64,000 nt of DNA from Planctomycetales bacterium ZRK34. GTDB taxonomy: Bacteria > Planctomycetota > Phycisphaerae > Phycisphaerales > Zrk34. Shown here piece by piece: positions 16,895-37,473 of the stretch. The notes under the pieces were generated by a model. It did not search any database. It saw only the letters and a program-made list of their open reading frames with translations, and had not been told where the DNA came from. Position numbers and translations under genes: made by a program. The DNA lies in NCBI GenBank assembly GCA_014873095.1, contig CP050848.1, forward strand, positions 5,453,850 through 5,517,849. The letters are read 5' to 3'. Positions within the stretch are counted from its first letter, which is position 1. Each line of letters starts with the position of its first letter.

Positions 16895-16935
16895 CGGGTC
16901 GAGTCTCGCAACGCATGGCGAAAGGAGCCACATTC

Positions 16936-19013: not shown

Positions 19014-19474
19014 CAACCGTCACCCACGAAATCCACTTCGCCCGCAAGACACGCCGTAAGGTCATCAGGCCGGGCCCGCCTCCCGAGCCACCGCCCCCAA
19101 CAGGTCGCATCCCTCGCGTCTCGAAACTGATGGCCTTGGCGATCCGCTTCGACGAGATGCTCGCCAACGGCCAAGTCGCCAGCATGTCCGAACTCGCCCG
19201 TCTCGCCCACGTAACCCAGCCGCGCATGACGCAGATCATGAACCTGCTGCACCTCGCGCCGGATATTCAAGAGGAACTGCTGAACCTGCCACTCGTCCAG
19301 AGCGGCGACGACCCGATCACCGAGCGGGATATGCGGCCGATCACACAGCTACGGAATTGGCGTAAGCAGCGCAAGTTGAGAGGAACACGCACTCGCAGTC
19401 TTTCTGTCGACGCGCCTCCATCACCGAGCTCGAGCCCATGTCGTCTCAAGTCGACGCGCGAACTCCGCCAATAA
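19010..19474 (+). CDS. HTH protein accompanying the recombinase
   Basis: The 154-residue protein has a helix-turn-helix core MSELARLAHVTQPRMTQIMNLLHLAPDIQEELL at about residues 62-95, flanked by an N-terminal basic/proline stretch. Similar short HTH proteins follow recombinases of this kind. It overlaps the recombinase gene by 4 bases. The last ~40 residues (after RNWRKQRKL) are Ser/Pro/Arg-rich, unlike the rest, and overlap the tail of the convergent minus-strand gene; they may be a read-through created when the cargo block was inserted here. Confidence 0.75.
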   Translation: MTTVTHEIHFARKTRRKVIRPGPPPEPPPPTGRIPRVSKLMALAIRFDEMLANGQVASMSELARLAHVTQPRMTQIMNLLHLAPDIQEELLNLPLVQSGDDPITERDMRPITQLRNWRKQRKLRGTRTRSLSVDAPPSPSSSPCRLKSTRELRQ

Positions 19475-23600: not shown

Positions 23601-23656
23601 AGGTGTTGTTCGATGACCGACTCGAAGGCAATCTCCCTGGTGTTGAATGCCGTCAT
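20624..23656 (-). CDS. hsdR: Type I restriction enzyme R subunit
   Basis: The motor and nuclease subunit of a type I restriction-modification complex, which translocates DNA with ATP and cuts unmethylated DNA. The 1010-residue protein has the N-terminal nuclease core (DVVLSLNGIPVVTLELKN, with ELK at about 153-155), helicase Walker A SAGSGKSNT (about 308-316), DEAH box (426-429), helicase C-terminal motifs (VAEKYQTGFDQPLLHTMFVDRRL...QTLSRLNRTHP) and a C-terminal assembly domain. Start 23656 overlaps the stop of the PtuB-like gene. Appears intact. Confidence 0.95.
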   Translation of the reverse strand: MTAFNTREIAFESVIEQHLLANGYVSVKSDGFDRESAVFPDEVLSFIRDTQPVEWAKLQALHGDRTGEQILTDLCKWMDSHGSLATLRHGFKCYGRTLRVAFFKAAHGMNPELGQQYERNHVGITRQLRFRPDSNKSIDVVLSLNGIPVVTLELKNPLSGQTVENAMRQYQQDRDPRETLFAFRRRALVHFAVDTEAVFMTTRLAGSATYFLPFNKGNVGGAGNPPDDAGRTYRTGYLWEEVLERDSLLDLLARFLHLQVEEKRAEDGSKVKRETMIFPRYHQLQAVRRLVGAARNHGVGHNYLIEHSAGSGKSNTIGWLAHRLSSLHNEHDLRVFDSVIVVTDRVVLDQQLQDTVYQFEHKMGVVQKIDDDSRQLAEALENAVPLIITTLQKFPFVSRQLLKLAEERGKTGNGLLRTRRCAVIIDEAHSSQSGETSTELKAVLGGDELAKRAKEMAAADGAEDMEELYRSMAKRSRQANLSFFAFTATPKHKTLKVFGSNGGAFHQYTMRQAIEEGFILDVLKNYVTYKTYFKLLKACEDDPNVERKKAAKALARYLRLHPHNVAQKTTIMVEHFQAVTRHKIGGRAKAMVLTGSRIEAVRYKQAFDRYIKEHGYPIRTLVAFSGTVQDDKLPDVTYTEEQMNQGIREKELPERFATGEYQVLLVAEKYQTGFDQPLLHTMFVDRRLAGIQAVQTLSRLNRTHPLKEDTFVLDFVPENRDEVKEAFRTYYEGAQIGEDVDPARLYEIKAELDASGVYLPEEVNRFCAIYFKPRQRQSVADHQAMNAALDPAVSRFQAGLAEDEDAIELWRGKVRAFKNLYGFLSQVIPYQDSDLEKLYTFLRHLSAKLPRRSSGPTYDFDDEVRLDYYRLQRISEGSISLRDGQAKALDGPSEVGSGVVREERAPLSRLIDVVNDRFGTDFNQADQLFFDQLVEAAVLDESIKRAAVVNPDDKFELVFKNLLETLFVERMDQNEEIFAKFMNDPGFQQLVTTWLSAEAYRRIRSESGAP

Positions 23657-24282
23657 GCGCGATTCTCCAGCTTTTGCCGCAACCACCACACCGCCACCTG
23701 GCGGTACGGCTGTAGCTCGCCGCCATCAGTCATTCGGTCGAGTTCTCGTTCGATGCGATCGGTCGGGATGGGTTTTTCAGCCTTCCACCAACCAAGAACA
23801 CCATCGAGAATGCCCTTCCGGTTGTTCCTGAGCAGAGCATGATTCAGATTTAGGACATTGTTCAGCTGGCCGTCAAACTCGGCATCATCGGATCGAACCG
23901 TCCCATCTGGATCGTACTTCAGGCGTGCTTCGATCTGGTGTGCTGGGTCGGCTGGATTCCAACGGATGTCGTCGTTGCCTTTGCGCGTATCGCAGTGCTG
24001 CAGGTGTCTCGGCAGTCCTTCCCCTCCAAGGCACGCGCCGAGCAGATTGCGGTATACAAGCTGCTGTTGCGGGTACGTTGCTTGACATTGCCAATGCTCG
24101 ATCTTCATGTCCCCCACGTTGGCGCGAATCCGGCCCATGCAGTAACAGCAAAGCCCTCGTTGCTCAGAGTGCAGCGCGACTCGCAGCCCATCCTTGTCCG
24201 CGTAGTTCTCGTAGTCACAATGCGGCGACTTGCGATGCTGGGTTAGGCTTGCTGGCTCCGCGCCCTTCGTGATGGCCCTCAT
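23653..24282 (-). CDS. PtuB-like HNH nuclease (Septu/retron-effector type)
   Basis: A 209-residue protein with a zinc/HNH core: CCYC (45-48), KIEHW (His63), YRNLL (Asn79), Cys84, HCDTRKG (96-102). The order matches the TIGR02646-type HNH proteins, which include PtuB of the Septu defence system and of the Ec78 retron. PtuB is the DNA-cutting effector restrained by PtuA. The gene overlaps the ATPase gene by 4 bases upstream and hsdR by 4 bases downstream. No reverse transcriptase or retron RNA is nearby, so a Septu-like rather than retron role is inferred. Confidence 0.8.
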   Translation of the reverse strand: MRAITKGAEPASLTQHRKSPHCDYENYADKDGLRVALHSEQRGLCCYCMGRIRANVGDMKIEHWQCQATYPQQQLVYRNLLGACLGGEGLPRHLQHCDTRKGNDDIRWNPADPAHQIEARLKYDPDGTVRSDDAEFDGQLNNVLNLNHALLRNNRKGILDGVLGWWKAEKPIPTDRIERELDRMTDGGELQPYRQVAVWWLRQKLENRA

Positions 24283-25523
24283 TCGTTCCCCCCCACAAAC
24301 TCGAGAAGTGTGCGTAAACGTGTGACTTCCGGGTCATCCTCGCCAAGATGATCTGCAAGCTTGCTCAATAACTCTCTCGCCTCGTCGAGTCTTGAGTCGC
24401 CCATGAGGCGGGAAAGCTTGGCCAGCAAATTATCGATCTCCTTGGCTCGTGGCTGGGAGTCCATGATCTCTTCGAGGACGCGACTCGAATCGACCCCGAA
24501 TGAGTGCGTTGGCGAGTACACCTGCCCATCCTTGATGATCTGGATTCGGCCGTGCTCGATCTCGCCAATGATCTGCGGGGAGTGTGTCGTGGCGACAAAC
24601 TGGCATTTCGGAAACGCCACCGTCAGATTGTCCACGATCAACCGCTGCCACTTGGGATGCAAGTGCAAGTCAAGCTCATCAATCAGGACGACCGCCTCTG
24701 CGTTCGCCGCCGGGTCCTTCATGCCCGGATTGGCTTGGATCAGACGGCGCGTCAAGTCCAGAACAAGTGCCAGCACGCCGCGCTCGCCATCGGAGAGCCA
24801 CGAGACATTCAGCGGCGTCTTGTCGCGGTCGATCATCAGCCCCTTTTCCTTATCTACCCTGAGACGCGAGAAGCCCGGCAGGAACCGCTGAACCACCTTC
24901 TCGAACGCCTTCAATGCCTTCCCGACATCGGGCTTTTCATCTTTCAGCGCAGCCTGAACGCGCATCCACGACGCGAACACACCTAACTGCAACGGACGCT
25001 CGGCCAGAGCGCCGGACAATGCCGCAGAGATATTGCCACCGGCTCGCCGACTGGAGGGACCACGCTCGGACGGCACCGCCCGACTGGTCGAGAAGAAGAT
25101 CGCAAAGGGCCGTCCACCCGAAGAGTTGTCAGCGGCCAGGTCGGGTGGGTCACCGAGGAACTCGCTCTTCGCCGGTGTCAGCACCACATCCTCGCGGGGC
25201 ATGCCCGCCTTTTTCTTTCTGGGAGCGCTGGTCTCACGTGGAACGTGGATCAGATACTCGTGTTCGATCTTACCGATGCCGATCCCGCATTGCACCGAAA
25301 GCGCCCCGCCCTCCACGCGAACATCATCCGGGGCGAAGCTCTCGGAATACGTCAGCCGGTTCATGTGCTTGACGACGGCCGACAGGGAAATCCGCAGCGC
25401 ATCCAGCACCGTTGTCTTGCCTACGCCATTGACGCCGACGATCAGGTTGAAGCCCGGCTGAAAGCGGAACTCCGCCGCTTCGATGGCGCGCAGGTTGGCG
25501 ATTTTCAGGCTGGTGACTCTCAT
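24279..25523 (-). CDS. PtuA-like AAA/ABC-type ATPase
   Basis: A 414-residue OLD/SMC-like ATPase: Walker A GVNGVGKTT (30-38), signature LSDGERG (243-249), Walker B VVLIDELD (278-285) and switch His in ATTHSPQII (about 314). The C-terminal helical part (VLEEIMDSQPRAKEIDNLL...GEDDPEVTRLRTLLEF) resembles PtuA of Septu systems, which senses infection and controls the HNH partner. It directly precedes and overlaps the PtuB-like gene and overlaps hsdS. No TOPRIM nuclease domain is evident, which argues against OLD nucleases. Confidence 0.8.
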   Translation of the reverse strand: MRVTSLKIANLRAIEAAEFRFQPGFNLIVGVNGVGKTTVLDALRISLSAVVKHMNRLTYSESFAPDDVRVEGGALSVQCGIGIGKIEHEYLIHVPRETSAPRKKKAGMPREDVVLTPAKSEFLGDPPDLAADNSSGGRPFAIFFSTSRAVPSERGPSSRRAGGNISAALSGALAERPLQLGVFASWMRVQAALKDEKPDVGKALKAFEKVVQRFLPGFSRLRVDKEKGLMIDRDKTPLNVSWLSDGERGVLALVLDLTRRLIQANPGMKDPAANAEAVVLIDELDLHLHPKWQRLIVDNLTVAFPKCQFVATTHSPQIIGEIEHGRIQIIKDGQVYSPTHSFGVDSSRVLEEIMDSQPRAKEIDNLLAKLSRLMGDSRLDEARELLSKLADHLGEDDPEVTRLRTLLEFVGGNE

Positions 25524-26809
25524 GCTGCGGCCTCCACATCAATGGCCCCGGTGACGGCGGCGGCGATCAGGGCAGCGCGACGCTCCTTGAGGAGTCGGAC
25601 TGTTCCTTGTGCGGATATGCTAATGGCGTCGAAGCGACGCGCCTGTGTCCGGATGAAGTCCGCGATCTCGATCTGCTCTTCCAACCGCGGGATCGGCAAC
25701 CAGACGTTCTTCACCGAGTCTTGCCCAATATTCTGCATTGAATTGCTGGCTCCGGTGGCATCACGCTCGAATTCGAAACGCCCGGCCGGGGATCGCAGAA
25801 GATAGACGAGGTATGGCTTGTGAATCGTCTTCGGGTTGAGGTGGAGGCGATACAGCTTGTCGCACAGGATGAGTTTGCGGCGAACCGTGCCCACGAGCGC
25901 GGTACTACCCAGTAACTGCACTGTGTTGGATCGGCTCATCAATACATCGCCCTCGACGACTTCGAGTTCAGGCTTCGGATCGAGATCAGGGGGAAGCGTC
26001 TTGTTCTCATCCGGATCGAACGCCATTCCGTTGACGCAGCCGGCCTTAAGAACGCCCCACTCGTCCGGTCCAGCCGGCATGTTCAGGCACTGGGGGGACC
26101 ACCCCTGCTCGATGTGGTTCATGTGGAACTTCAGCCGATCTACTGACCAATGCTTCGGAATCTCGCCGAGCCATTCGATGCCGGAGTGTTTCGTGGGGGC
26201 GGCGGGGTTGAGGCCGCGGGTGACGGCGTGGGTGATGAGGGCGCGGCGTTTCTCGGCCAGCAGGTCCAGCAGCCGCTCCTTGGCCACCACCATCGCATCC
26301 AGCTTCGCCGTCTCCCGGTCCAGGTAATCCGCAATCGCCCGCTGACGGTCGAGGGGGGGAAAAGGCACGGGGATCGCGGCCAGGTCGCTCGCATTGATCG
26401 CCGGATAGCTCACCCCGACCGAACGCCGCTCAACCTCGGCGAGGAAGCTCGGATCACGGAGAACGTAACGGCAGAAGCCGGGATCGAGTTTGTCTAGCAT
26501 GGGACGGATCACGGCGAATCCGGTCGAGACGATTAGGTTTGGCTGCGGCTCAATGATCGCAGCGATGGCTTGAAGATAGGTACGGACTGTCGAAATGATG
26601 ACGTCCCCGTGACGAACACGCCGTCGAGCCCGGGAGGGCGCGTCTTCAAAGCGGTAAGTCGCGGTGCCAGTGATGCCCGCGCCAGCTTCGACATTGCCGA
26701 TGTCGATGTACTCCAACTCCCAGTCCGGGTCGATGGATTCGGGCAGTGCCTCGTCATTGACGGTGGCGATGTACTTGATCTTGCGTGTTTCGCCAACTCC
26801 GGTGCTCAT
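25520..26809 (-). CDS. hsdS: Type I restriction specificity subunit
   Basis: The DNA-recognition subunit of the type I complex. Its 429 residues contain two target-recognition domains, each ended by a conserved helix: IPVPFPPLDRQRAIADYLDRETAKLDAMV (about 147-176) and IPRLEEQIEIADFIRTQARRFDAI (about 374-398). The middle hinge has the common GIEWLGEIPKHWSV. Two different TRDs predict a bipartite, asymmetric target; the bases cannot be read from sequence. It overlaps hsdM upstream and the PtuA-like gene downstream by 4 bases each. Confidence 0.95.
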   Translation of the reverse strand: MSTGVGETRKIKYIATVNDEALPESIDPDWELEYIDIGNVEAGAGITGTATYRFEDAPSRARRRVRHGDVIISTVRTYLQAIAAIIEPQPNLIVSTGFAVIRPMLDKLDPGFCRYVLRDPSFLAEVERRSVGVSYPAINASDLAAIPVPFPPLDRQRAIADYLDRETAKLDAMVVAKERLLDLLAEKRRALITHAVTRGLNPAAPTKHSGIEWLGEIPKHWSVDRLKFHMNHIEQGWSPQCLNMPAGPDEWGVLKAGCVNGMAFDPDENKTLPPDLDPKPELEVVEGDVLMSRSNTVQLLGSTALVGTVRRKLILCDKLYRLHLNPKTIHKPYLVYLLRSPAGRFEFERDATGASNSMQNIGQDSVKNVWLPIPRLEEQIEIADFIRTQARRFDAISISAQGTVRLLKERRAALIAAAVTGAIDVEAAA

Positions 26810-28809
26810 TCCGTCACCTCCCTGAGCAGGCGCAGAATCTCGGCTTCGGCCTTCTTCAGATCGGCATCAATCTCCTCCAGCGGGCGCGGAGGCGTGTAGG
26901 TGTAGAAGTGGCGATTGAAGTTGATCTCGTAGCCGACCTTATCCTTCTCCCGGTCCATCCAGGCGTCCGGCACATGGGGGCGAACCTCGCGCTCGAAGTA
27001 GGCTTCGATGTCATCGGTGAGCGGGACGTTCTCAAAGTCACGAAGGGATGTATCAGGCTCGAAATCCGAAAACTGCGTGGGCTTGTCGGCTAGGACGGGT
27101 TGAGCGGCCGGTTCGGTGACGGTGAAGACGCTGCGAAACAGCTTGTGCTCCGGGGCCTTCCAGCGGGTCTTGCGCTTCCTGAGGATCGTGGCGATGCGTA
27201 GGGCGACAGCGTTCCAGTCATCGAGCGGCTCCCGGCCGATCTGCTTGTCGATCTCCTGTATGTCATCGAGCAGGTGAGGTACGGCGTCGAGAAAACGGGC
27301 CTTGTCCTCGGCGGTCATCCGGTAGCGGAGGCGGAGCGGGCGTTCGACGGTGACGCGGGTGTAGCCGAATTCTTCGTTGCAAAAGACCTTGGAACGGTCC
27401 GACACGGTGAATCTACCGTAGCCCTTGACGATCTCGGCGATCTGGTCGGGTTCCGCTCCATCCTCGGCGTCGGGGCCTTCGCCGATCTTGCGGCGTTTGT
27501 CGCCCATGCTGCGGCGCATGGGGATGTAGATGTCGCGAGCGTCGAAGAGCTGGATTTTGCCCTTGCGGCGTTTGTCCTTACGGTTGGTGACGATCCAGAT
27601 GTAAGTGCTGATGGGTGTGTTGTAGAACATCTGCTCGGGCAGTGCGACGACGGCTTCGAGCCAGTCGTTTTCGATGATCCACTTGCGGATTTCGCTTTCG
27701 CCCGAGCCCGCGCCGCCGGTGAACAGCGGCGAGCCGCTAAAGACGATGGCCAGACGCGAGCCGTGCTTCTGCTTGTCGGGCTGGTATGGCTCGAACTTGC
27801 TGATCATGTGCTGGAGGAACAGGAGCGAGCCATCGTTGACGCGAGGCAGGCCTGCGCCAAAGCGGCCAGCGAAGCCGGATTTTGCATGCTCGCGCTTCAG
27901 TTCCATCTGCTGTTTCTTCCAGTCCACTCCGAAGGGCGGGTTGGCGATGAGATAGTCGAACCGGTGGCCGGAGAATTGATCATCGAGGAAGGTATCGCCG
28001 AACTTGATATTCTCGCCCGCGCCATTGTGGGCAACCTCCTTGATGAGCATGTCGGAGGCGGCGGTGGCGAAAGCGCGTTTGTTGTAGTCCTGGCCGTAGG
28101 TGTAGAGCCGGGCTTCGAGGTTGTGGCGGCGGAGGTAATTCTGGGCCTCGGCGAGCATGCCGCCAGTGCCGCAGGCGGGGTCGAGCATGGTGCGGACGGC
28201 GTCACCGGCAAGCAGGTCGTCATCCTGGATGAAGAGCATGCTCACCATCAGGCGGATGACCTCGCGGGGGGTGAAGTGGTCGCCGGCTGTCTCGTTGGCC
28301 AGTTCGTTGAAACGGCGGATTAGGTTTTCAAAGGCCAAGCCCATCTGACTGTTGGGCACGGTGTCGGGGTGCAAGTCAACGTCTGAAAACTGGGAGACGA
28401 CGAGGTAGAGGATATTGGCCTCTCGCATCTTCTCGATTTCGTTGCCGAACTCGAAGTAGTCGAAGATGCGGCGAACGTTGGCGGAGAAGCCATTGATGTA
28501 GCTGACCAGATGCTTGTCGATGTGGTCGGGGTCGCCCTTGAGCTTGGCGAAATCGAGCGGCGAATGATTGTGGAAGCGTTGCCCTGCGGCCTTGTTGAGG
28601 ACGGTGTCGAGGGCGGCATCCTTGTGTTTGCTGCGGTTCTTGGCACACGCAGTGAGGACCTTCGCCTTGGTCGGGGCGAGCACGCAGTCGAAGCGACGCA
28701 GGACGGTCATGGGCAGCATGACGCGCTCATATTGCGGCGGGCGATACGGCCCGCGGAGCAGATCGGCGATCTGCCAGATGAGGTTCGCGATTTCTTGGTG
28801 GGATGGCAT
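26806..28809 (-). CDS. hsdM: Type I modification methyltransferase
   Basis: N6-adenine methyltransferase of the type I complex; it protects host sites and, with HsdS, forms the core enzyme. The 667-residue protein has an N-terminal helical domain, motif I DPACGTGGML (210-219) and catalytic motif IV NPPF (290-293), then ALPEQMFYNTPISTYIWIVTNRK. It is longer than classical HsdM (about 500 residues) because of a C-terminal extension rich in charged residues (after ~500). It starts 3 bases after the DUF5655-like gene stop. Confidence 0.95.
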   Translation of the reverse strand: MPSHQEIANLIWQIADLLRGPYRPPQYERVMLPMTVLRRFDCVLAPTKAKVLTACAKNRSKHKDAALDTVLNKAAGQRFHNHSPLDFAKLKGDPDHIDKHLVSYINGFSANVRRIFDYFEFGNEIEKMREANILYLVVSQFSDVDLHPDTVPNSQMGLAFENLIRRFNELANETAGDHFTPREVIRLMVSMLFIQDDDLLAGDAVRTMLDPACGTGGMLAEAQNYLRRHNLEARLYTYGQDYNKRAFATAASDMLIKEVAHNGAGENIKFGDTFLDDQFSGHRFDYLIANPPFGVDWKKQQMELKREHAKSGFAGRFGAGLPRVNDGSLLFLQHMISKFEPYQPDKQKHGSRLAIVFSGSPLFTGGAGSGESEIRKWIIENDWLEAVVALPEQMFYNTPISTYIWIVTNRKDKRRKGKIQLFDARDIYIPMRRSMGDKRRKIGEGPDAEDGAEPDQIAEIVKGYGRFTVSDRSKVFCNEEFGYTRVTVERPLRLRYRMTAEDKARFLDAVPHLLDDIQEIDKQIGREPLDDWNAVALRIATILRKRKTRWKAPEHKLFRSVFTVTEPAAQPVLADKPTQFSDFEPDTSLRDFENVPLTDDIEAYFEREVRPHVPDAWMDREKDKVGYEINFNRHFYTYTPPRPLEEIDADLKKAEAEILRLLREVTE

Positions 28810-28812
28810 ACG

Positions 28813-29724
28813 TCAGTTTTCCTCGAAGCTCTTCTGAATCAGCGGCTTGGCTCTTTCCAGATCGTCAAGGTTCCGGATCGTCAGCTCCAGGTCGCCGGTG
28901 CCGTGGTGGCCGACGTTCCGTTTGTCGGCCGAGAACCCGTCCTCAAGCGTGACCTCGTCGGGACTCAGTGGAAGCCACATTAGAAGGCTGTTCCGGCCTG
29001 TCTGAAGCTGGATCGTGGCGAAGTTCTTCAGCCGCTTGCAGGCGATGTACCACTTGAGGAACTTGATCTGGACGTCGTCGCCCAGGCCCTGGACGTGGTC
29101 GCGGCAGGCGTCGAACAACTCCTTGAGCGGCGGCTCTGCCCGGGCCAAGTACTCTTCCTGCGTCGTATACTGCTTGGGACCACCGCCAGTGCCGCCATCA
29201 CCATCTTCGATCGGCTCGGCCGAGACGACGTTGACCAGATCCAGCATGAGCAGATCGTCGCCGAAAAAGGTATGGCGGAGCAGTTCGATGTTGCGGTTGA
29301 TCTGCTGGATGGCGTGAATGTCGTAGCGGGTGAAGTCTTCTGCGATACAGAGCAGACGCGGCCCGCTCCAATCCAACTGCTCGGCAGCTTCCTGGCCGAA
29401 CTGCCGCTGAACCAACAACTCGAACTCGGCTTTGTGGTCCATCAGCCAGTCGAGATAGAACAGGCCCTGGTTGATGACGTTGGCGTTCGAGTTCCGTTTA
29501 TATTCGATGATTGTGGGGCAGAAGTTCTCGTCGATCCCGAGCGTGTCGATCCTGCCCGCGTGGGTCTTGCCGGTGGAGTACTCCGAAGCAACAAAGCGGA
29601 CGTGCAGGAAGGTTTCGAGGTGCTTTTCGATAAGCACCTGAAGCTTCTTCTCCAGCCTGACCGCGCGGCCGACAAGCTCCTCGGCGTCGCCGCTGCTAAC
29701 GCGGAATAGTTTCACGTCGCTCAT
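28813..29724 (-). CDS. PD-(D/E)XK nuclease-like protein with DUF5655-type C terminus
   Basis: A 303-residue protein. The segment GRIDTLGIDENFCPTIIEYK gives a PD-(D/E)XK core (Asp60, Glu74, Lys76), as in NucS/Holliday-resolvase-like nucleases. The C-terminal ~110 residues (LKELFDACRDHVQGLGDDVQIKFLKWYIACKRLKNFATIQLQ) resemble DUF5655. Such proteins often flank type I restriction genes, where they may add DNA cleavage. It overlaps the upstream HTH gene by 4 bases and lies just before hsdM. The nuclease activity is inferred from motifs. Confidence 0.7.
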   Translation of the reverse strand: MSDVKLFRVSSGDAEELVGRAVRLEKKLQVLIEKHLETFLHVRFVASEYSTGKTHAGRIDTLGIDENFCPTIIEYKRNSNANVINQGLFYLDWLMDHKAEFELLVQRQFGQEAAEQLDWSGPRLLCIAEDFTRYDIHAIQQINRNIELLRHTFFGDDLLMLDLVNVVSAEPIEDGDGGTGGGPKQYTTQEEYLARAEPPLKELFDACRDHVQGLGDDVQIKFLKWYIACKRLKNFATIQLQTGRNSLLMWLPLSPDEVTLEDGFSADKRNVGHHGTGDLELTIRNLDDLERAKPLIQKSFEEN

Positions 29725-29924
29725 TCTTCATCTCCGATGCCGGTGACAGCGCGACCCGTCTTGACCCAAGAATCGATGGCTTCCTTGTGGAAGCGCCATC
29801 GCTTGCCGATCTTCGTGCCTGGCAGCTTGTTCTCGACTGCCAGCTTGTAGAGCGTGGACTTGGAGATCTTCAGATACTCTGCTAGTTCGTCCATCGTCAT
29901 GATCTCGTCGCGTTTCGCCGCCAT
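29721..29924 (-). CDS. Excisionase-family HTH DNA-binding protein
   Basis: A 67-residue protein with the helix-turn-helix MTMDELAEYLKISKSTLYKLAVENKLPGTKIGKRWRFHKEAIDSWV, the standard excisionase/MerR-like fold. First gene after a promoter-like sequence and before the nuclease/hsd genes, so it is more likely a local regulator of the operon than an excisionase. Co-translated with the next gene (ATGA overlap). Confidence 0.85.
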   Translation of the reverse strand: MAAKRDEIMTMDELAEYLKISKSTLYKLAVENKLPGTKIGKRWRFHKEAIDSWVKTGRAVTGIGDEE

Positions 29925-29981
29925 GGCTACTCCAACGCCCCGGGGATGATCTGTCCGCCCAGCCCCGTTTACGCATCGATT

Positions 29982-30009
29982 ATTATCCGTTTTTCGCCGA
30001 TGTTCACAA
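29982..30009 (-). promoter_or_regulatory. Sigma-70-like promoter for the R-M/Septu operon
   Basis: On the minus strand TTGTGA (30009-30004), 16 bases, then GATAAT (29987-29982). This is a good match to the -35/-10 consensus and lies about 60 bases before the HTH gene, in a locally AT-rich gap. Function inferred. Confidence 0.45.
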
Positions 30010-30025: not shown

Positions 30026-30919
30026 TCAGTCGTCCTCGTCATCGGCAAAGAGTTCGTCTTCTGGAACGGACAAAAGGACGAGCAGCGTCTGCGTCGCAGG
30101 GACGCCGAAGTGGTGCTCGTACACCGGGGCTCGTGCGGCCTGAAAGTTGTCGAACGTCTGGCACCAGTCCTGGCCAAGGGCTTGTCCCTTCGTGTCGAGC
30201 AGGCATCCCGCAGCGAACGACTGCCACTTTGCCTGGGCCTCGGCGTGAAGATCGCTGCCACGCGGGCGCGGATAGCAGCCGCCTTCGATCATGGCCTGCG
30301 AGAAGAAGCTGAAGGCGATCCGGCCCTCGCGAACACCGATCAGTGCACACGGGAAATCCGACAGCTCGACGCTGCGTCGGGCGGTGCTCGTGATCGATGT
30401 CTTGAACTCGCTGGCCCAGAGTTCAATATCCGCGAATGACATTTCGCCGTCATTCACCAGCGGCCGCAGCAACTTCGTCGGAATGAGCAGTCCGGCGGCA
30501 AACGCATCGGCCTCCGTCTCGATGGTGCGGTCGCTCAGGAACTCACCTCTGGAGGGGTGCGACTTGCCCGTCCGCAGCAGGTATGCCCGGTGCCGGTCGA
30601 GGAAGTAGTGGCCCAATTCATGCGCGATCGAGAAACGCGTGCGCGGATGGTGCTCGCCATTTGGTTGGCGGTCGTACTTGGTGTTGAAGAACAGCAGGAA
30701 GCGGTTCTTGGATCGGTGGTATTCCAACTGGCCGTCGAAGCGATCCCGGAAGTCTGCCCCCTTGGCAGTGAGCAGCGGCTTCTCACTGGCCACAATCGCC
30801 AACGGGTCGATGGGCGCGGAGTCGATGTGCAGTGCGGCTAACACATCGGCCGCCTGCTCAATCGCCTTGTCTTGGCGGTTCCTGATCTCCGCCCATTCCA
30901 GTCGCGTCTTCTTGGCCAT
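30026..30919 (-). CDS. ImmA/IrrE-family metallo-endopeptidase
   Basis: A 297-residue protein with the zinc-protease motif RFSIAHELGHYFLDRH (HELGH at about 100-104) and a downstream EADAFAAGLLIPT containing the third zinc ligand. This is the ImmA/IrrE family, whose members cleave repressors (ImmR, DdrO) on stress or DNA damage. Start 30919 was chosen (MAKKTRL); an ATG 12 bases upstream is possible. It overlaps the acidic-protein gene by about 60 bases. A target among the two upstream proteins or the local HTH protein is plausible but unproven. Confidence 0.88.
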   Translation of the reverse strand: MAKKTRLEWAEIRNRQDKAIEQAADVLAALHIDSAPIDPLAIVASEKPLLTAKGADFRDRFDGQLEYHRSKNRFLLFFNTKYDRQPNGEHHPRTRFSIAHELGHYFLDRHRAYLLRTGKSHPSRGEFLSDRTIETEADAFAAGLLIPTKLLRPLVNDGEMSFADIELWASEFKTSITSTARRSVELSDFPCALIGVREGRIAFSFFSQAMIEGGCYPRPRGSDLHAEAQAKWQSFAAGCLLDTKGQALGQDWCQTFDNFQAARAPVYEHHFGVPATQTLLVLLSVPEDELFADDEDD

Positions 30920-31268
30920 CGTCGTGCCCATCCTCAAGCGCCTCGCGGCGCAGTTGATCGAGTAGTTCGTCGGTCTCCGAGTCTGCGTCGCCTTCGTTTC
31001 GGTTGAGCTGCAGCACATCGTCTGCGATGGATTCGCAGTCGAATTCTGGAAGATCGAACTCCGGCGCGGCCGGGGTCCAATCGGTGAACTCGCCCGAGGT
31101 CACGCGGTCGATGATCTCCTCGATCTGATCGTCGGGAAGTTTCTCGTCGGATAGCGACTCGAATTCCTTCTGCGCCTCTTCCGGCGTCATCGGCGCGTGG
31201 CCCGTGCGCCGGGCCAGCCCCTTCGCGATCTCCTGCCAGAATTTGTCTGATTCGGGGTTCATGTTCAT
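30858..31268 (-). CDS. Small acidic protein between sigma factor and protease
   Basis: A 136-residue protein, unusually rich in Asp and Glu, with an N-terminal helical part (FWQEIAKGLARRTGHAPMTPEEAQKEFESL) and a disordered acidic tail. Not recognised. Its position, between an ECF-like sigma factor (4-base overlap) and an ImmA/IrrE protease, would suit an anti-sigma factor or protease substrate. There is no membrane segment or zinc motif. Confidence 0.7.
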   Translation of the reverse strand: MNMNPESDKFWQEIAKGLARRTGHAPMTPEEAQKEFESLSDEKLPDDQIEEIIDRVTSGEFTDWTPAAPEFDLPEFDCESIADDVLQLNRNEGDADSETDELLDQLRREALEDGHDDGQEDATGMGGDQEPPRQGD

Positions 31269-31882
31269 CGCCTCTTCCCAGCGGACTGACGCATGAGTTC
31301 GTCCACCCGCTTCTTGAGGTTCTCGTGCGCCTTGTTCCGCGACACGTAGATGCTGTTCTTCGAGGTCCCGTGGATTTCTGTCAGACGCTGCGCATCCGCC
31401 GTACCGTCGGCTGCCAGGTCGGCCTGAATGATGGCCTTCTGCAGCGCCGGGAGTGTGTCGATGGCCTTGAGCACATACTCCCAGCGTTGGTCGTCAGGGC
31501 CGAAGAGTTGGGCGGTCCCATCGTTTTCGTTGCTCGGGCCAGCCGGATCAAAGTCGTCTTCGTATTCCCGGTTCTTCGAGCAGAAACTCATTTCTCGCCG
31601 CAACACGCTCTTCGCCGCGTTCTGGGCGATGCGGATGCACCATGACGGAAGCTGCCCTTTACCTTCGTGATACCGGTCGGCGAATCGCCAAATGTTGTGA
31701 ATCGCCCGATTGAATGCCTCGTCGCGTTCCTGTTCTTGAAGGACATGGGCGAAATACTTCGTCAGAAAAGCCTTCATCCGACCACCGTACCGTTGAAGGA
31801 ACAGGCGCAGCCCTTCCTGATCGCCCATGGCCATCATGAGGGCGATGTCTGAATCGCTCACAGTGACTTCACCGTCTGGCAT
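31265..31882 (-). CDS. ECF-like sigma-70 family factor of the defence block
   Basis: About 205 residues. Region 2-like: RDEAFNRAIHNIWRFADRYHEGKGQLPSWCIRIAQNAAKSVLRRE (about 55-100). Region 4-like: LPALQKAIIQADLAADGTADAQRLTEIHGTSKNSIYVSRNKAHENLKKRV. This fits small alternative sigma factors. ATG 31882 lies 7-8 bases after AAGG; a GTG one codon earlier is possible. First gene of the leftward block, so it may drive its own operon or the downstream defence genes. Confidence 0.8.
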   Translation of the reverse strand: MPDGEVTVSDSDIALMMAMGDQEGLRLFLQRYGGRMKAFLTKYFAHVLQEQERDEAFNRAIHNIWRFADRYHEGKGQLPSWCIRIAQNAAKSVLRREMSFCSKNREYEDDFDPAGPSNENDGTAQLFGPDDQRWEYVLKAIDTLPALQKAIIQADLAADGTADAQRLTEIHGTSKNSIYVSRNKAHENLKKRVDELMRQSAGKRR

Positions 31883-32134
31883 CACGTCACCTTCCGCTGT
31901 CGTACTGACTACGCGGCCCCCTTAACTGGCGGACCCATGAATTTTTCTGGCGGCCCCGGGTTAAGGCGAAGGGAGTCGCCCGGCGTATTCCTTCCATCAG
32001 CCGGACGTTCCGGTCTTGATAAAGGATCGCCGCTACCAAGATAGCCGCACAAGTGACGGCTGGCTAGCGGGATAGCGTGACGCGGCCGCCCCGCACCGTG
32101 CCACGCCCAACATGCGGGGAAAGGAGCCATAACC
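31883..32134. promoter_or_regulatory. Divergent intergenic region with palindrome
   Basis: 252 bases between the leftward sigma operon and the rightward 32135 gene. It holds a 13-base palindrome, CCGGACGTTCCGG (32001-32013), and an inverted pair CCTTAAC / GTTAAGG (about 31919 and 31966). Both divergent promoters must be here; no clear consensus boxes are seen. The palindrome is a candidate operator. Confidence 0.4.
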
Positions 32135-33319
32135 ATGGCCAAGCCGTTCGAACCCCGAAAAGTTCTCAAGCAAATCTCCAACCCGCTGCTGCGAGAGTTC
32201 TTCCGTCGTCGCGGCGAACTCGACGACGTGCCTTGGGACGACCTGACAGAGCACAAGATCGAGGCGATCTTCGAAGCGTGGCAGGCGTTGGACGAGCCGA
32301 AGAAGCTCGAGGTCCAGGTCATCCTCCGCGACGTCTTTGAGCTGGCCGACCATCGCGGCCGGGCGGTGCTCGCCGAGGAGATTCTCTGTCGCTGCCCGGA
32401 CCGCGCCGCCGAGTTCGAGGCGCAGGCGAGCAAGGCGGACAACGCGATGTGGGTGTACCTGAATGTTCACGAGGCCTTCGACGAGGCGGCGATGTTCGCC
32501 CGCGCCGATGCCCTCGCGGCCGGGCGGTACTGGAACCGTCGCAACAGTCTGCCGAAGAAGGTGATCGATGTGGACCAAGCCCTCTGCGATCGGCTGGCCC
32601 AGGCGCTGACGGCGTACTACGGGCCGACGCAGATGCGTGGGCGGCATTGCCACATTGTGCATTACCGTCGCTCGGGCGGTGGCGACTACTTCTTCGCCTA
32701 CCTCGACGACTACCCGGACAAGCACCTGGTGTTCGACGGCGACAGCGACCAACCCATCGTGCGCGCCGATCGCTACGCGTTCGAGAACGTGTTCGTCTAC
32801 AACGAAGGCGACGGTTCGATGGAGTTGTACGCCCAGGGCGGCAAGAAGCTCTGGGAGCCGTTGCAGACCGCGTTCTGCGAGGCGGTGCTGGATGAGAAGA
32901 TCGATCCGGCCGACCCCATGCGGCCGGCGTACCAGCTCGATCATCTGCTCACACCTGATTTCCCGCTGCCCACCGACCCGGCCGACGGTGTGGAGGAAGC
33001 GCGGATCACGCTGCTCCGCATCGCGCCGCCCGGCAGCGGCGGGTACATCGAGATCAAGGCGGATCTCAAGGGCAACCGCAACGACATCTACCGCAAGATC
33101 GAGCGATGGCTCAAGGCCGGCGTCGCGGTCGAAGGGGCACGTGTCGTCAAGGCGTCCTTCCTCCTGAAGTTCCAGGGCAACGGGCACGGCCGCCAGCCCA
33201 CGATGCCCTTCGATGTGACCCCCAACTCCAGCAACCTCAAGAGCAAACCCGACGAGCAGCGTGAAGTTGCCGACCGGTCCCTGAAGATGTGGAAGGTGGT
33301 GGAAGATGACGAGCATTGA
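32135..33319 (+). CDS. Unrecognised phage/element protein
   Basis: A 394-residue protein with GGAGC before ATG. No family recognised. The N-terminal third is helical (LKQISNPLLREFFRRRGELDD...). The middle has aromatic, acidic strands (DYFFAYLDDYPDKHLVFDG). The C terminus contains GGYIEIKADLKGNRNDIYRKIERWLKAG. It overlaps the next gene by 14 bases, so the two are co-translated. They sit between the cargo block and the second sigma factor. Confidence 0.8.
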   Translation: MAKPFEPRKVLKQISNPLLREFFRRRGELDDVPWDDLTEHKIEAIFEAWQALDEPKKLEVQVILRDVFELADHRGRAVLAEEILCRCPDRAAEFEAQASKADNAMWVYLNVHEAFDEAAMFARADALAAGRYWNRRNSLPKKVIDVDQALCDRLAQALTAYYGPTQMRGRHCHIVHYRRSGGGDYFFAYLDDYPDKHLVFDGDSDQPIVRADRYAFENVFVYNEGDGSMELYAQGGKKLWEPLQTAFCEAVLDEKIDPADPMRPAYQLDHLLTPDFPLPTDPADGVEEARITLLRIAPPGSGGYIEIKADLKGNRNDIYRKIERWLKAGVAVEGARVVKASFLLKFQGNGHGRQPTMPFDVTPNSSNLKSKPDEQREVADRSLKMWKVVEDDEH

Positions 33320-34277
33320 TGTGTTTCCAGTGCTGCTGAACGCGCTCGACGACGTCGGGCGCGTATTCGATCACGACGATACCTCCTGCTGGCCCCCGGG
33401 TGAGCTGGAGGCTTTGAAGCAACTCGGGCTGGTGCGTCAGGCCACCGGCGGCCTGCATGCACCATGCCCGAACTGCCATGAGGCGCACGTCGAACCGGTG
33501 ACGATTCGGCAGTCATCCGATGGCACGCGGCGGTACTTCATCCGATGTCCGGAGTCGATGCGTGTTGAGGTCACTGCTGAGATGTGTATCGGGTGGCAGG
33601 TCGACGGCGACGGTCTGGCCAAGGCCGTATCCGCCGCCATGGACCTGAAGTCCGCGCCGAAGGCGGTGGTCCCCGGTCGTCTCTGGCGGTTGGGCCGCAC
33701 GCCTTGGAAACAGGCGACGCGCGAGGTGGTGTTGGCGTGCCGCTTGGACGACGCCGATGCGACATCGGTCACGGCTCATCTTGGTTCAGGCGGACGGGCC
33801 ATTGTGTTCGTGCCGCGCGAAGCACCGGACGAACGCATCTGGCCAGGCCATGTGCCAGCGGTTGTCGCACTGTCGCGGGTCGCGACACTCACGCCGCATG
33901 GTATTGAATTGGATGTTGCCACGATCACTGAGATCGTCGGCGATGCCGACGTGTTGGCCGAAGAACGGTCAGCGCTGCCCGTTGATCCTGATGTGAAAAA
34001 GCAAACCGTCCGGCGGCAGGTCACGGCGCAACTGCAGTCGAAGGATTGGGACGACGTCCTGGTCGCGGCCTACAAGCAGCACGGCTCGTACCGCAAGGCG
34101 GCAGACGCGTTGACGGCACAGACCGGCGAACCGGTCAGCAAGGACAAGGTGCGGCGCGCTGTTGAACGGCGTGGCGGCATCGCCGAGGTCATGGCCGATT
34201 CGGACACCGCCTCGGTCGCCCGAACTGTCGCGTCGCAACGCCGCGACAGACAGAAAAAAGTTCTGACTTACCGTTAG
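33306..34277 (+). CDS. Unrecognised zinc-ribbon/HTH protein
   Basis: A 323-residue protein. A putative zinc site (CPNCHEAH, about residues 53-60, with RCPE later) lies near the N terminus. The C-terminal ~80 residues look DNA-binding (VRRQVTAQLQSKDWDDVLVAAYKQHGSYRKAADALTAQTGEPVSKDKVRRAVERRGG), with a helix-turn-helix similar to those of transposon or plasmid proteins. The middle is not recognised. It overlaps the 32135 gene and is followed by a terminator. Confidence 0.75.
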   Translation: MTSIDVFPVLLNALDDVGRVFDHDDTSCWPPGELEALKQLGLVRQATGGLHAPCPNCHEAHVEPVTIRQSSDGTRRYFIRCPESMRVEVTAEMCIGWQVDGDGLAKAVSAAMDLKSAPKAVVPGRLWRLGRTPWKQATREVVLACRLDDADATSVTAHLGSGGRAIVFVPREAPDERIWPGHVPAVVALSRVATLTPHGIELDVATITEIVGDADVLAEERSALPVDPDVKKQTVRRQVTAQLQSKDWDDVLVAAYKQHGSYRKAADALTAQTGEPVSKDKVRRAVERRGGIAEVMADSDTASVARTVASQRRDRQKKVLTYR

Positions 34278-34306
34278 CCACGGTATTGCAGTCACTTAGC
34301 ACGCTT

Positions 34307-34331
34307 CAGGCGGGCCTCGCGTCCGCCTTTT
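34307..34331 (+). terminator. Rho-independent terminator
   Basis: Arms AGGCGG and CCGCCT with a 9-base GC-rich loop and a short T tract (TTTT), about 30 bases after the 33306 gene. Confidence 0.65.
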
Positions 34332-34498
34332 CTATGCGCCAACCGCGACACCACGGGCCTCGGTCGAGGCCGGATCGGCTCACAACCGGTCAGCCCCGAC
34401 CGCACCTGTGATTCTCGCGGCAAGGTGTCGCGACACAGAACTTCGAACGTGCGTAAGGCGGCTGATCCGGGAGCATTTCGACCGGCCTCGAGGACACC

Positions 34499-35080
34499 AT
34501 GGCCTCGAGCCACGATATCGTTTCGGACCCGTTCACCGTCACCTTCATCCGCGTCAAAGCAGGCCAGCTGATCAAGCGGTCCGACTTCTCAAGTTCGGAC
34601 TTCGATGACCTGCAACAGGACATGCGCCTGTACCTCCTGGAGAAGGCCCACCTGTTCGACCCCGATCGGGGCAACCTCGAGTCGTTCGTCACCAAGGCGG
34701 TCAACTCGTGCGTGGGGATGATGCTGCGCCGCCAGGACTGCCTCAAGCGGCGAGAAGACAAGAAGGCCATCTCGCTCGAGCGCACGATGGTCGAGCATGA
34801 AGATGAGGTCAGCATGCTCGGCGAGGTGCTGCTGGAAGACGACGGCCAGCGGCGCACGCAGACCTACCCCAAGTCGGACTTCGAACACTTCGAGCTGAAC
34901 GAAGCGGTCGAGCATGTGATGGCCAAGCTCGATCCCGACGACCGCGATTTGCTTCTGAGCATCGCTGAACACGGCCTCAAGGAGACGGCGCGTATGCGTG
35001 GCGTGTCCTGGCGGCAGGTCACCAATGCGCGCGACCGGCTTCGCAAGGAGTTCGAGAAAGCCGGCCTCGGTCGTGATTAA
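34499..35080 (+). CDS. Small sigma-70-like factor of the phage
   Basis: A 193-residue protein. Region 2-like: FDDLQQDMRLYLLEKAHLFDPDRGNLESFVTKAVNSCVGMMLRRQDCLKRRED (about 36-88). Region 4-like: LDPDDRDLLLSIAEHGLKETARMRGVSWRQVTNARDRLRKEFEKAGL. This is the ECF/phage-sigma layout. It stands alone between a terminator and copy B of the repeated promoter-like element, which begins inside its last codons. That makes it the best candidate for the factor recognising the three elements, though nothing in the sequence proves this. Confidence 0.8.
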   Translation: MASSHDIVSDPFTVTFIRVKAGQLIKRSDFSSSDFDDLQQDMRLYLLEKAHLFDPDRGNLESFVTKAVNSCVGMMLRRQDCLKRREDKKAISLERTMVEHEDEVSMLGEVLLEDDGQRRTQTYPKSDFEHFELNEAVEHVMAKLDPDDRDLLLSIAEHGLKETARMRGVSWRQVTNARDRLRKEFEKAGLGRD

Positions 35081-35125
35081 TCGGGACGGCCTCTGCTGGT
35101 TGTCATAGGTAACTAGAGAGGGGAG
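35073..35125 (+). promoter_or_regulatory. Repeated promoter-like element, copy B
   Basis: GGGAC (35083-35087), 16 bases, CATAGGTAACTA (35104-35115), then GAGAGGGGA. It overlaps the stop codon of the sigma gene and precedes the DNA-metabolism genes. Similarity to copy A continues downstream (TGTTTT, then CCCG). Confidence 0.6.
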
Positions 35126-35142
35126 GACGTGTTTTGCCCGCC

Positions 35143-35190
35143 CCCCCGGAAGCTCCCGGAAGCCCCGGAAGTTCCCGGAACTCGCCCCGG
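35143..35190 (+). repeat. Tandem CCGGAAG leader repeats
   Basis: Downstream of copy B the leader contains four successive CCGGAA units (starting about 35146, 35156, 35166 and 35177) with 10-11 base period, ending in CCCCGGG. The RNA could form competing hairpins. No gene is present before 35271. Confidence 0.55.
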
Positions 35191-35270
35191 GCCTCGAAGG
35201 CAAGGCAGGGATGCCGACACCTTCGAGGCCCTCCGGCGGGCGGGCCGAATGGCAACGGCGAAGGAACGCG

Positions 35271-36101
35271 ATGCACACGACGAGGAACACGATGGACCTG
35301 AGCATTGATCTGAACATCTTCGAAGTCGAACCGGCCGAGGAATACCATCGCAAAGCCGATCGCTACCTCAGTAGCCACCAACTGATCGACTTCATCAAGT
35401 GCCCGTGGTTGTATCGCAAGAAGTCGCTCGGTCTGATCGTCGACACCGACTCGCCCAGTTACCTGATCGGCCGTGCCGCACACGTCCGCATTCTCGAAGG
35501 CCGCGATGCCTACGAGACACAATTTGCTATTGGCGGCCCGATCAATCCCAGGACCAACAAGCCGTTCGGCTCAAACACGAAGGCCTTCGCCGAGTGGGCG
35601 GTGGCCCAAGGCAAGCACGTCCTTTCCCACGACCAGGTCGATCTGATCGAACAGATGGCCAGCGGCGTGGCCATGAACGACGAGGCAGTCGATCTGCTGC
35701 TCTACGGCCGGTCCGAAGGCGTGCTCCGGGCCGACTACTGCGACACCCCGTGCCAGATCCGCATCGATTGGGTCCACCCGCACCGGGGCATCGTGGACTT
35801 CAAAACCTGCGATGACCTGACCTGGTTCGAAGCCGATGCCCGGCGCTACGGCTACCACCGACAGATGGCGTTCTATCGCGCGGTGCTGGCCCAAGTTCTC
35901 GACGGCGAGATGGTGCCGGTTCACCTCGTCGCGGTTGAGAAGAAAGAACCCTTCCGATGCGGGGTCTGGCGCGTCGGTGACGACACGCTGACCATCGCTC
36001 AACGCGAAAACGAATCCGCAATCCGGCGGCTGCGCACCTGCTGGGACAACGACCACTGGCCCACCGGCTTCGAGGAGGTGCGGGTGCTCGAAGTCGCCTG
36101 A
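35271..36101 (+). CDS. RecE/exonuclease VIII-like PD-(D/E)XK nuclease
   Basis: A 276-residue protein with SSHQLIDFIKCPWLYRKK, YLIGRAAHVRILEG and a late catalytic core IDWVHPHRGIVDFKTCDDLTWF (Asp, then D-x-K), followed by a Tyr-rich helix RRYGYHRQMAFYRAVL. This matches phage PD-(D/E)XK exonucleases of the RecE type, which resect double-stranded DNA for recombination. Two ATGs are possible (35271 and 35292), each with an AGGA site. It is the first gene after copy B; the AAA ATPase and DUF669 protein downstream complete a recombination set. Confidence 0.8.
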   Translation: MHTTRNTMDLSIDLNIFEVEPAEEYHRKADRYLSSHQLIDFIKCPWLYRKKSLGLIVDTDSPSYLIGRAAHVRILEGRDAYETQFAIGGPINPRTNKPFGSNTKAFAEWAVAQGKHVLSHDQVDLIEQMASGVAMNDEAVDLLLYGRSEGVLRADYCDTPCQIRIDWVHPHRGIVDFKTCDDLTWFEADARRYGYHRQMAFYRAVLAQVLDGEMVPVHLVAVEKKEPFRCGVWRVGDDTLTIAQRENESAIRRLRTCWDNDHWPTGFEEVRVLEVA

Positions 36102-36115
36102 TCAGGCATCTCTTC

Positions 36116-36175
36116 GCGCCCGGGCGGCTTGTGGCGGGTCCACCACATGCGACGGCCACCCCCCGGGCGCTTCTT
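36116..36175 (+). other. Structured intergenic element
   Basis: GCGCCCGGG (36116-36124) pairs perfectly with CCCGGGCGC (36162-36170), followed by TTCTTTT. The 37-base loop can itself fold (TGTGG...CCACA). It could be a terminator or an attenuator between the nuclease and ATPase genes. Confidence 0.5.
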
Positions 36176-36216
36176 TTGAACAACAACGCGAACCACTCAC
36201 GCACAAGGAAGCTCAC

Positions 36217-36996
36217 ATGTCCCTACTCGAAAAGATTCACACCGGACCACGTCACTCGCCGCCGCGATTCCTGATCTACGGCACCGAGGGTATCGGCAAG
36301 TCCACCACTGCGGCGCAGGCCCCCAAGCCCATCTTCATCCCGACCGAGGACGGCCTGGACCAGATCGACTGCGCCAGCTTCCCGCTCGCCAACAAGCTGG
36401 AAGATGTGGAGACGGCGATCCAAGCACTGCTGCACGACAAGCACACGTTCGAGTCGGTCGTAATCGACTCGGTCGACTGGCTCGAGCGACTGATCTGGGA
36501 CGCGCTGTGTGAACAGTACGGCGTCAACAGCATCGAGAAAGTCGACGGCGGCTACGCCAAGGGCTACACGCACGCCCTGACGCCGTGGCGGAAGGTGCTC
36601 AACGACTTGAACGCCCTGCGCAACCAGCGCGGCATGTGTGTGATCCTCCTCGCCCATGCCAAGGTCGAGAAGTTCGAAGACCCCGAGCACTCAGCCTACG
36701 ACCGCTACTCGCCGCGCCTGCACAAGCACGCCACGGCGCTGATCACCGAGTGGGCGGACGCGGTGCTGTTCGCCACCCGCAAGATCATCACCAAGACCGA
36801 AGACGGCGGCTTTGGCCGCGATCGGACCATCGCATCGGGCCTGGGCAAGGACGGCGGCGAGCGCGTGATCCGCACCGTGGGCAGTCCCGCCTGCGTGGCC
36901 AAGAATCGCTACGGCCTGCCGGCTGAACTGCCGCTCTCGTGGTCAGCGTTGATGCAGGCCATGTCCCCTCGAACCACCAACACCAAGGAGTCCTGA
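36217..36996 (+). CDS. Phage AAA ATPase (AAA_24 / Sak4-like)
   Basis: A 259-residue RecA-like ATPase with Walker A GTEGIGKST (about 24-32), Walker B SVVIDSVDWLERL and VILLAHAKVEKF. Phage proteins of this type (often annotated AAA_24 or Sak4-like) take part in single-strand annealing or recombination together with an SSB-like protein. It lies between a RecE-like nuclease and a DUF669 protein, which supports that role. Strong AAGGAAG site before ATG. Confidence 0.8.
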   Translation: MSLLEKIHTGPRHSPPRFLIYGTEGIGKSTTAAQAPKPIFIPTEDGLDQIDCASFPLANKLEDVETAIQALLHDKHTFESVVIDSVDWLERLIWDALCEQYGVNSIEKVDGGYAKGYTHALTPWRKVLNDLNALRNQRGMCVILLAHAKVEKFEDPEHSAYDRYSPRLHKHATALITEWADAVLFATRKIITKTEDGGFGRDRTIASGLGKDGGERVIRTVGSPACVAKNRYGLPAELPLSWSALMQAMSPRTTNTKES

Positions 36997-36999
36997 TCC

Positions 37000-37473
37000 A
37001 TGGCAAATCTCAATGGATTCAACGCGAACGACGTCGACCCGAACACCAGCTTCGACCCGATCCCGGCGGGCAAATACCTTGCGGCGATCACCGCCTCGGA
37101 AATGAAGCCGACCAAGAACGGCAACGGCAGCTACCTCGAGCTGACGTTCTCCGTCCTCGAAGGCGAGTATCAGGGCCGCACGCTCTGGGCACGGCTGAAC
37201 CTGAACAACCCCAACGCCACGGCGGTCAAGATCGCCCGAGGCGAACTGTCGGCGATCTGTCGCGCGGTCGGGGTGATGCAGCCCAGGGACAGCGTGGAAC
37301 TGCACAACCTGCCATTGGTCATCAACGTCAAGCTCAAGAAGCGCACCGACAACGATGAACTGACCAACGAACTCAAGGGTTTCGAGGCCAAGGCCGAAGT
37401 CGGTGCGCATGCCGCTGCATCCGGAGAGCAGGCTCCCGTGACCGACAACACGCCGCCGTGGAAGAGGGGGTGA
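37000..37473 (+). CDS. DUF669 domain phage protein (SSB-like role)
   Basis: A 157-residue protein beginning MANLNGFNANDVDPNTSFDP with PAGKYLAAITASEMKPTKNGNGSYLELTFSVLEGEYQGRTLWARL, the DUF669 signature. DUF669 proteins accompany phage recombinases and are presumed single-strand DNA binders. The C terminus (TDNTPPWKRG) is reminiscent of an interaction tail. Three bases separate it from the ATPase gene. Confidence 0.85.
   Translation: MANLNGFNANDVDPNTSFDPIPAGKYLAAITASEMKPTKNGNGSYLELTFSVLEGEYQGRTLWARLNLNNPNATAVKIARGELSAICRAVGVMQPRDSVELHNLPLVINVKLKKRTDNDELTNELKGFEAKAEVGAHAAASGEQAPVTDNTPPWKRG

Follow-up and report, generated by a model that had tools for sequence, protein, structure and literature searches.

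The known switches built on M78 (ImmA/IrrE-like) proteases act through destruction of a repressor, and the usual targets of these proteases are DNA-binding regulators bearing an HTH. Among the described examples, ImmA/ImmR pairs control prophages (PMC12637031), and the pairs CapH+CapP and CapK+CapS control immune operons (PMC13373217). In the characterised members CapP and PprI, the cleavage of regulators is stimulated by ssDNA (PMC10904395). Protease-dependent control of sigma factors has been described in type III CRISPR systems. There, CalpL/CalpT/CalpS form a proven arrangement of a protease, an anti-sigma factor and an ECF sigma factor (PMC11417357), and in the type III-E system Csx29/Csx30/CASP-sigma a protease relieves the locus-encoded inhibition of an ECF-like sigma factor, with autoregulatory motifs (PMC10028731).

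The window (the whole stretch of DNA that was analysed, 64 kb in length) holds a cassette encoding an ECF-type sigma factor, a small acidic protein and an M78 protease. We consider it reasonably probable that this cassette is a lysogeny/induction switch, in which the M78 protease cuts a candidate anti-sigma factor and the freed sigma factor fires a phage early operon.

Composition and conservation of the cassette

The sequence-only reading had described an ECF-like sigma factor, a 136-residue acidic protein and a HELGH metalloprotease overlapping each other, and all three reading frames were found in place, intact and overlapping. All lie on the reverse strand. The sigma gene (31265-31885, 206 aa) has a GTG start at 31885 and an alternative ATG at 31882, the latter being the gene end used in the sequence-only reading. 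It overlaps the acidic protein gene (30858-31268, 136 aa) by 4 bp, and the start of the protease gene (30026-30931, or start at 30919) falls inside the acidic reading frame, giving an overlap of about 60-75 bp. Codon-position changes and dN/dS against the related loci L044, L045, L035 and L036 indicate purifying selection on all three genes; for the acidic gene, dN/dS amounted to 0.025/0.29, 0.081/0.70, 0.19/0.90 and 0.26/0.79, respectively.

The protease matches Peptidase_M78 (Pfam), and the PADLOC capP model covers it over its full length (E 1.4e-44). Its best solved structure is CapP (7t5t), both by profile (4e-18) and by the fold of a good model, followed by IrrE/PprI, and the HELGH catalytic motif is invariant among 12 relatives. 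As an M78 protease with an HEXXH motif and a C-terminal sensor-like domain, it is of the CapP type. A second CapP-like protease gene follows an XRE gene elsewhere in the same genome (L062, near 3,338,000), with an M78 gene adjacent on the opposite strand.

The sigma protein matches PF04542 (Sigma70_r2) with E 4e-5, just below the Pfam gathering score, and 25 NCBIfam sigma models, including the ECF superfamily, every one of them under its curated cut-off. When compared with solved structures, its profile spans regions 2 and 4 of RpoE and other ECF factors end to end. Regions 2 and 4 alone at a length of about 200 aa characterise ECF (group 4) sigma factors, and the 206-aa protein has this composition. 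The model of the type III-E sigma factor matches it weakly (21 bits vs a cut-off of 100). A weak sigma match was also obtained at L010.

The third component is strongly acidic (pI 4.05, with 40 D+E vs 11 K+R), and no family match was obtained with the Pfam, NCBIfam and PADLOC models. It consists of N-terminal helices, a linker, a two-helix C-terminal motif (VLQLNRNEG...LLDQLRREALED) and an acidic tail. The structure model is helical and of low confidence (mean pLDDT 65), with the tail after the two helices disordered, and did not have the quality needed for comparing folds. A profile search against solved structures matched nothing but designed helical repeats and coiled coils, which were judged to be matches of composition and rejected as relatives; no known anti-sigma domain showed a detectable resemblance in this search. 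When genome contigs were scanned with this protein as the sole query, there were zero matches.

Cassettes in other genomes were retrieved with the protease profile, profiles being built from three remote members. The order of sigma gene, small protein gene and protease gene is kept in about 20 loci, which bears out the treatment of the three genes as a single unit. They include a plasmid of Isosphaeraceae bacterium EP7 (L006, where no gene is listed at the position of the protease), MAGs named Planctomycetota, Hydrogenedentota, Nevskiales and Rhodopirellula, and viral contigs. Every close protease relative is accompanied by both other genes except where the contig is cut, and for viral-contig proteases with a profile E < 1e-70 both partners were present upstream in every one. 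An Acidobacteria MAG (L042) holds a fragment of the small protein together with the protease, and in L037 the upstream genes are missing. Four remote loci (L049, L050, L054 and L058) carry, in the same order, a sigma-type gene, a gene for a protein of 118-125 aa and a CapP-type protease gene, and the same three-gene order was assigned by position in L051-L053 and L061. Beside the EP7 cassette lies a DUF1883 gene (L006:13077-13796), adjoined by a Cas2-like 91-aa reading frame recognised by eye; a protein 51% identical to the DUF1883 protein is encoded beside the cassette of L039 (L039:981-1310).

The small protein keeps the same position in all cassettes and is present wherever the sigma factor and a CapP-type protease occur together. 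Across loci the N-terminal halves diverge, and a C-terminal motif of the type LxLxRNxG...LxxxRxxA is common. This two-helix motif could be an anti-sigma segment that wraps around the sigma factor, or a docking site for the protease. The acidic protein is a candidate anti-sigma factor that probably holds the sigma factor inactive. It could be argued instead that the protease cleaves the sigma factor itself or the HTH protein encoded at 29721, with the acidic protein serving as a chaperone or adaptor; M78 proteases do usually cut HTH regulators, and this one is encoded close by. We regard such a scenario as very unlikely, because the small protein accompanies the sigma factor and protease wherever both are found, and because the HTH protein is of the excisionase/Mad1-like type and was not seen beside related cassettes, which makes it a doubtful conserved substrate.

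Prophage setting and exchange with repressor switches

From position 16915 rightwards the window is a prophage, extending from the recombinase through the terminase, portal and capsid genes. The end of the element (16915-19474, forward strand) encodes a DUF2924 protein, a large serine recombinase and a conserved 154-aa protein, and is kept in L035, L036, L045 and L047. To the right of the cassette follow genes for a Sak4-like annealing protein, SSB, helicase, primase, terminase, portal and capsid. The cassette is divergent, across a gap of 250 bp, to the first phage early gene (32135-33319, forward strand; phrog_37634, function not assigned), which is the presumed target of the switch. Further early genes on the same strand (33306-37473) encode a conserved 323-aa protein, a sigma-like protein (34499), a DUF3799 nuclease-like protein, the Sak4-like annealing protein and SSB. 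Early genes and cassette have both been retained in L035, L036, L044 and L045, which belong to the same phage family. The cassette of L125 and L127 has DUF3799-type early genes on one side and an integrase-like gene, recognised by eye, on the other. Genes divergent from it encode, among others, a DUF3799 protein (in L125 78% identical to that encoded at 35211) and a second sigma-like protein.

The sigma-like gene inside the early operon of the window (34499-35080, forward strand) scores 47.9 bits with the ECF superfamily model, and counterparts of it are present in L035, L036 and L045. Its product may act one step further along in a cascade of transcription.

With the first early protein as query, 41 viral contigs and further genomes were collected. 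Where the upstream side is present, 28 viral contigs have an M78 gene immediately before the early gene and in its orientation, and in nearly all of them it is preceded by an XRE gene, which is the ImmR/ImmA layout. The divergent sigma cassette occupies this place in five loci (the window, L035, L036, L044 and L045), and in L063 a divergent XRE+M78 pair is found at the cassette position. On the tree of the early protein the switch type changes at least three times, two of the changes being forced by well-supported branches, although the long branches of L036 and L063 leave the exact number of exchanges unsure (at least 2-3). Judged from this tree, one of the two switch types, the XRE+M78 pair or the sigma cassette, has taken the place of the other more than once in one phage lineage. 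Such repeated exchange represents a natural experiment on the replacement of lysogeny switches. The M78 protein of L063 (L063:7114-8586) is 490 aa long, and its CapP match is confined to the first 276 residues.

Elements of the divergent gap and the choice of target

Two cis-elements lie in the gap between the cassette and the early operon. One, GTTAAG-N7-CGTAGT (31908-31926, reverse strand), faces the sigma gene, and the other, GTTAAG-N18-CGTATT (31960-31989, forward strand), faces the early operon and has the appearance of an ECF -35/-10 promoter. In the 64-kb window the pattern GTTAAG-N5..19-CGTANT matches exactly twice (0.01 expected), at these two copies, which are inverted relative to each other with the form GTTAAG...CGTA(G/T)T. 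A slightly longer pattern has 3 matches in the 5.7-Mb genome vs 9 for a reversed control, and is thus at background level outside the divergent gap. The outward copy is conserved in L035, L036, L044 and L045. Upstream of the sigma gene, an inverted-repeat arm followed by a CGTA at the same spacing was found in 12 of the 18 modules, compared with a mean of 0.9 and a largest value of 4 in 200 shuffles; several of the remaining modules hold near variants recognised by eye. The half-site itself varies among modules (GTTAAG, TGTAAC, TGTCAC, CGTAAG, GTGAGG). The GTTAAG/TGTAAC forms occur upstream of the early genes in all eight sigma-type loci and in none of the 25 XRE-type loci, a contrast that is descriptive, as these half-sites were picked after the sigma-type loci had been viewed.

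TGTAAC and CGTA resemble the boxes that ECF sigma factors use at -35 and -10, with a spacing of 16-17 bp. The copies with a spacing of 17-18 bp suit an ECF promoter, whereas those with 7 bp misfit ordinary -35/-10 geometry. The two spacings, seen in the window (31908-31989) and in the gaps of L125, L127, L041, L049 and L054, differ by 10 bp, or one helical turn.

The 7-bp spacing and the inverted-repeat layout are operator-like, and could indicate that the sigma-like protein is a DNA-bound repressor or activator, sitting on the half-site inverted repeat and blocking both divergent promoters until the protease inactivates it or an acidic co-repressor. The classical switch at the same spot is indeed a repressor, and protease and repressor are paired in the XRE+M78 loci. 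On the other hand, the protein matches ECF sigma factors along its full length, in region 2 as well as region 4, the CGTA box resembles ECF -10 elements, and the outward copy, with its spacing of 17-18 bp in the window and in its nearest relatives, suits an ECF promoter, so that this explanation seems to us rather improbable, though worth keeping in mind.

To the left of the cassette lies a variable defence cargo (20624-29924, reverse strand) encoding a Mad1/excisionase-like HTH protein, a PDC-S18 protein, a type I methylase with its specificity subunit, a PtuA-like ATPase and a 1021-aa reading frame (20624-23689, reverse strand) that is restriction-subunit-like by position. The cassette was previously supposed to lead this block as a stress switch, turning on type I restriction after damage or phage entry. 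The two do share a strand and are separated by a gap of only 101 bp. However, this gap contains sigma70-like promoter candidates for the block (29979-30009, reverse strand; consensus match alone), and a pattern scan of the 64-kb window found no ECF-like element before the block, the element copies facing only the sigma gene and the early operon. The cargo between protease and recombinase also varies freely among relatives that keep the cassette: type I restriction is present in the window and in L045, type II methylases with genes on mixed strands in L035 and L036, and L044 has patatin-type and type I genes, encoded on the other strand from the cassette, while L125 and L127 have no defence cargo between the cassette and the integrase-like gene. 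The missing element copy, the separate promoter candidates and the exchange, inversion or absence of the block in relatives all disfavour its control by the cassette, which for this locus we consider unlikely.

The PDC-S18 protein (446 bits) and the excisionase/Mad1-like HTH protein (28813-29924) head the type I restriction genes and are candidate regulators of that block. Assignment of the block to a MADS system was rejected, as the HTH protein at 29721 scored 71.4 bits vs a cut-off of 80, its neighbours best fit type I methylase/specificity and PDC-S18 models, and mad2/mad5 matches were far weaker.

What survives of the proposed link to defence concerns distant cassettes, which also speak for the restriction-block alternative. 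These adjoin a patatin and CD-NTase pair (CBASS) in L041, Prok-E2_B and ThiF genes in L049, and Multi_ubiq, Prok-E2_E and ThiF/JAB genes (Bub-like) in L054; other neighbours are a SAVED protein (L058), a DUF6791/ThiF protein (L053) and a DUF499 protein (L050). The defence genes of L041, L049 and L054 are transcribed divergently from the cassette, with element copies in both orientations, outward ones among them, in the intervening gap. The module is therefore not phage-specific, and by analogy with CapH+CapP and CapK+CapS the same logic of sigma release may serve immune operons in remote relatives.

The proposed switch and described systems

The lysogeny/induction reading draws on what was seen directly: three genes kept together as a unit, a protease of the CapP type, a location among phage genes, a pair of elements in the divergent gap, and the exchange of the cassette with XRE+M78 pairs. 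The three-part mechanism of sigma factor, inhibitor and protease, put forward earlier from the sequence, is plausible. In the quiet state, the acidic protein would bind the ECF sigma factor and keep it off promoters. The CapP-type protease would sense DNA damage, most likely as ssDNA in the manner of CapP and PprI, and would cut the acidic protein, either directly or with host proteases completing its degradation. With the element at 31960-31989 as promoter, the freed sigma factor is then predicted to transcribe the early operon at 32135; through the copy at 31908-31926 it would also transcribe its own operon, generating positive feedback. Counted against this switch are the lack of detectable similarity between the acidic protein and known anti-sigma domains, the low confidence of its structure model, the 7-bp spacing of the sigma-facing element, and the position of distant cassettes beside defence operons rather than phage genes.

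More broadly, the chances are about even that these loci represent a separate class of damage-responsive switches, composed of a CapP-type protease, an anti-sigma factor and an ECF sigma factor, interchangeable with phage repressor-protease switches, adopted by CBASS and ubiquitin-like immune operons, and equipped with their own paired outward promoter elements. The parts are all of known kinds, and their combination and exchange with repressor switches appear to be new. No description of an M78 protease combined with an anti-sigma factor and a sigma factor was found in open-access papers, subscription papers being outside the scope of the search, which makes this weak evidence.

In comparison with CapH/CapP, the cassette protease is CapP-like over its full length and distant cassettes stand beside CBASS and ubiquitin-like operons, but in place of the HTH repressor CapH there is an ECF sigma factor together with an acidic protein that is not of the HTH kind. 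The ImmA/ImmR switches of prophages and ICEs likewise place an M78 protease in the control region of a mobile element, at the same place relative to the early genes. Unlike them, the cassette has no XRE gene, carrying the sigma factor and small protein instead; it is divergent from the early operon, whereas ImmA/ImmR are co-oriented with it, and it is predicted to work by activation and not by derepression. IrrE(PprI)/DdrO shares the protease fold, and ssDNA-stimulated cleavage of a regulator is a property of IrrE(PprI) (PMC10904395), but the substrate there is an XRE-type repressor of DNA-repair genes. The three-part logic proposed for the cassette, with a candidate anti-sigma factor, would be that of CalpL/CalpT/CalpS; however, the CalpL protease is of the SAVED-Lon type and is switched on by cyclic tetra-adenylate, and that of the cassette is a zinc protease of the M78 family. 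Near the cassette, no CRISPR genes were noticed. With Csx29/Csx30/CASP-sigma the cassette would share the release by a protease of an ECF sigma factor from a locus-encoded inhibitor, as well as autoregulatory motifs within the locus, although the protease there is an RNA-guided, caspase-like TPR-CHAT enzyme in place of an M78/CapP one. If the proposed switch is correct, the module frees an activator, the sigma factor, and thereby joins the world of ImmA and CapP to that of the type III CRISPR proteases and anti-sigma factors.
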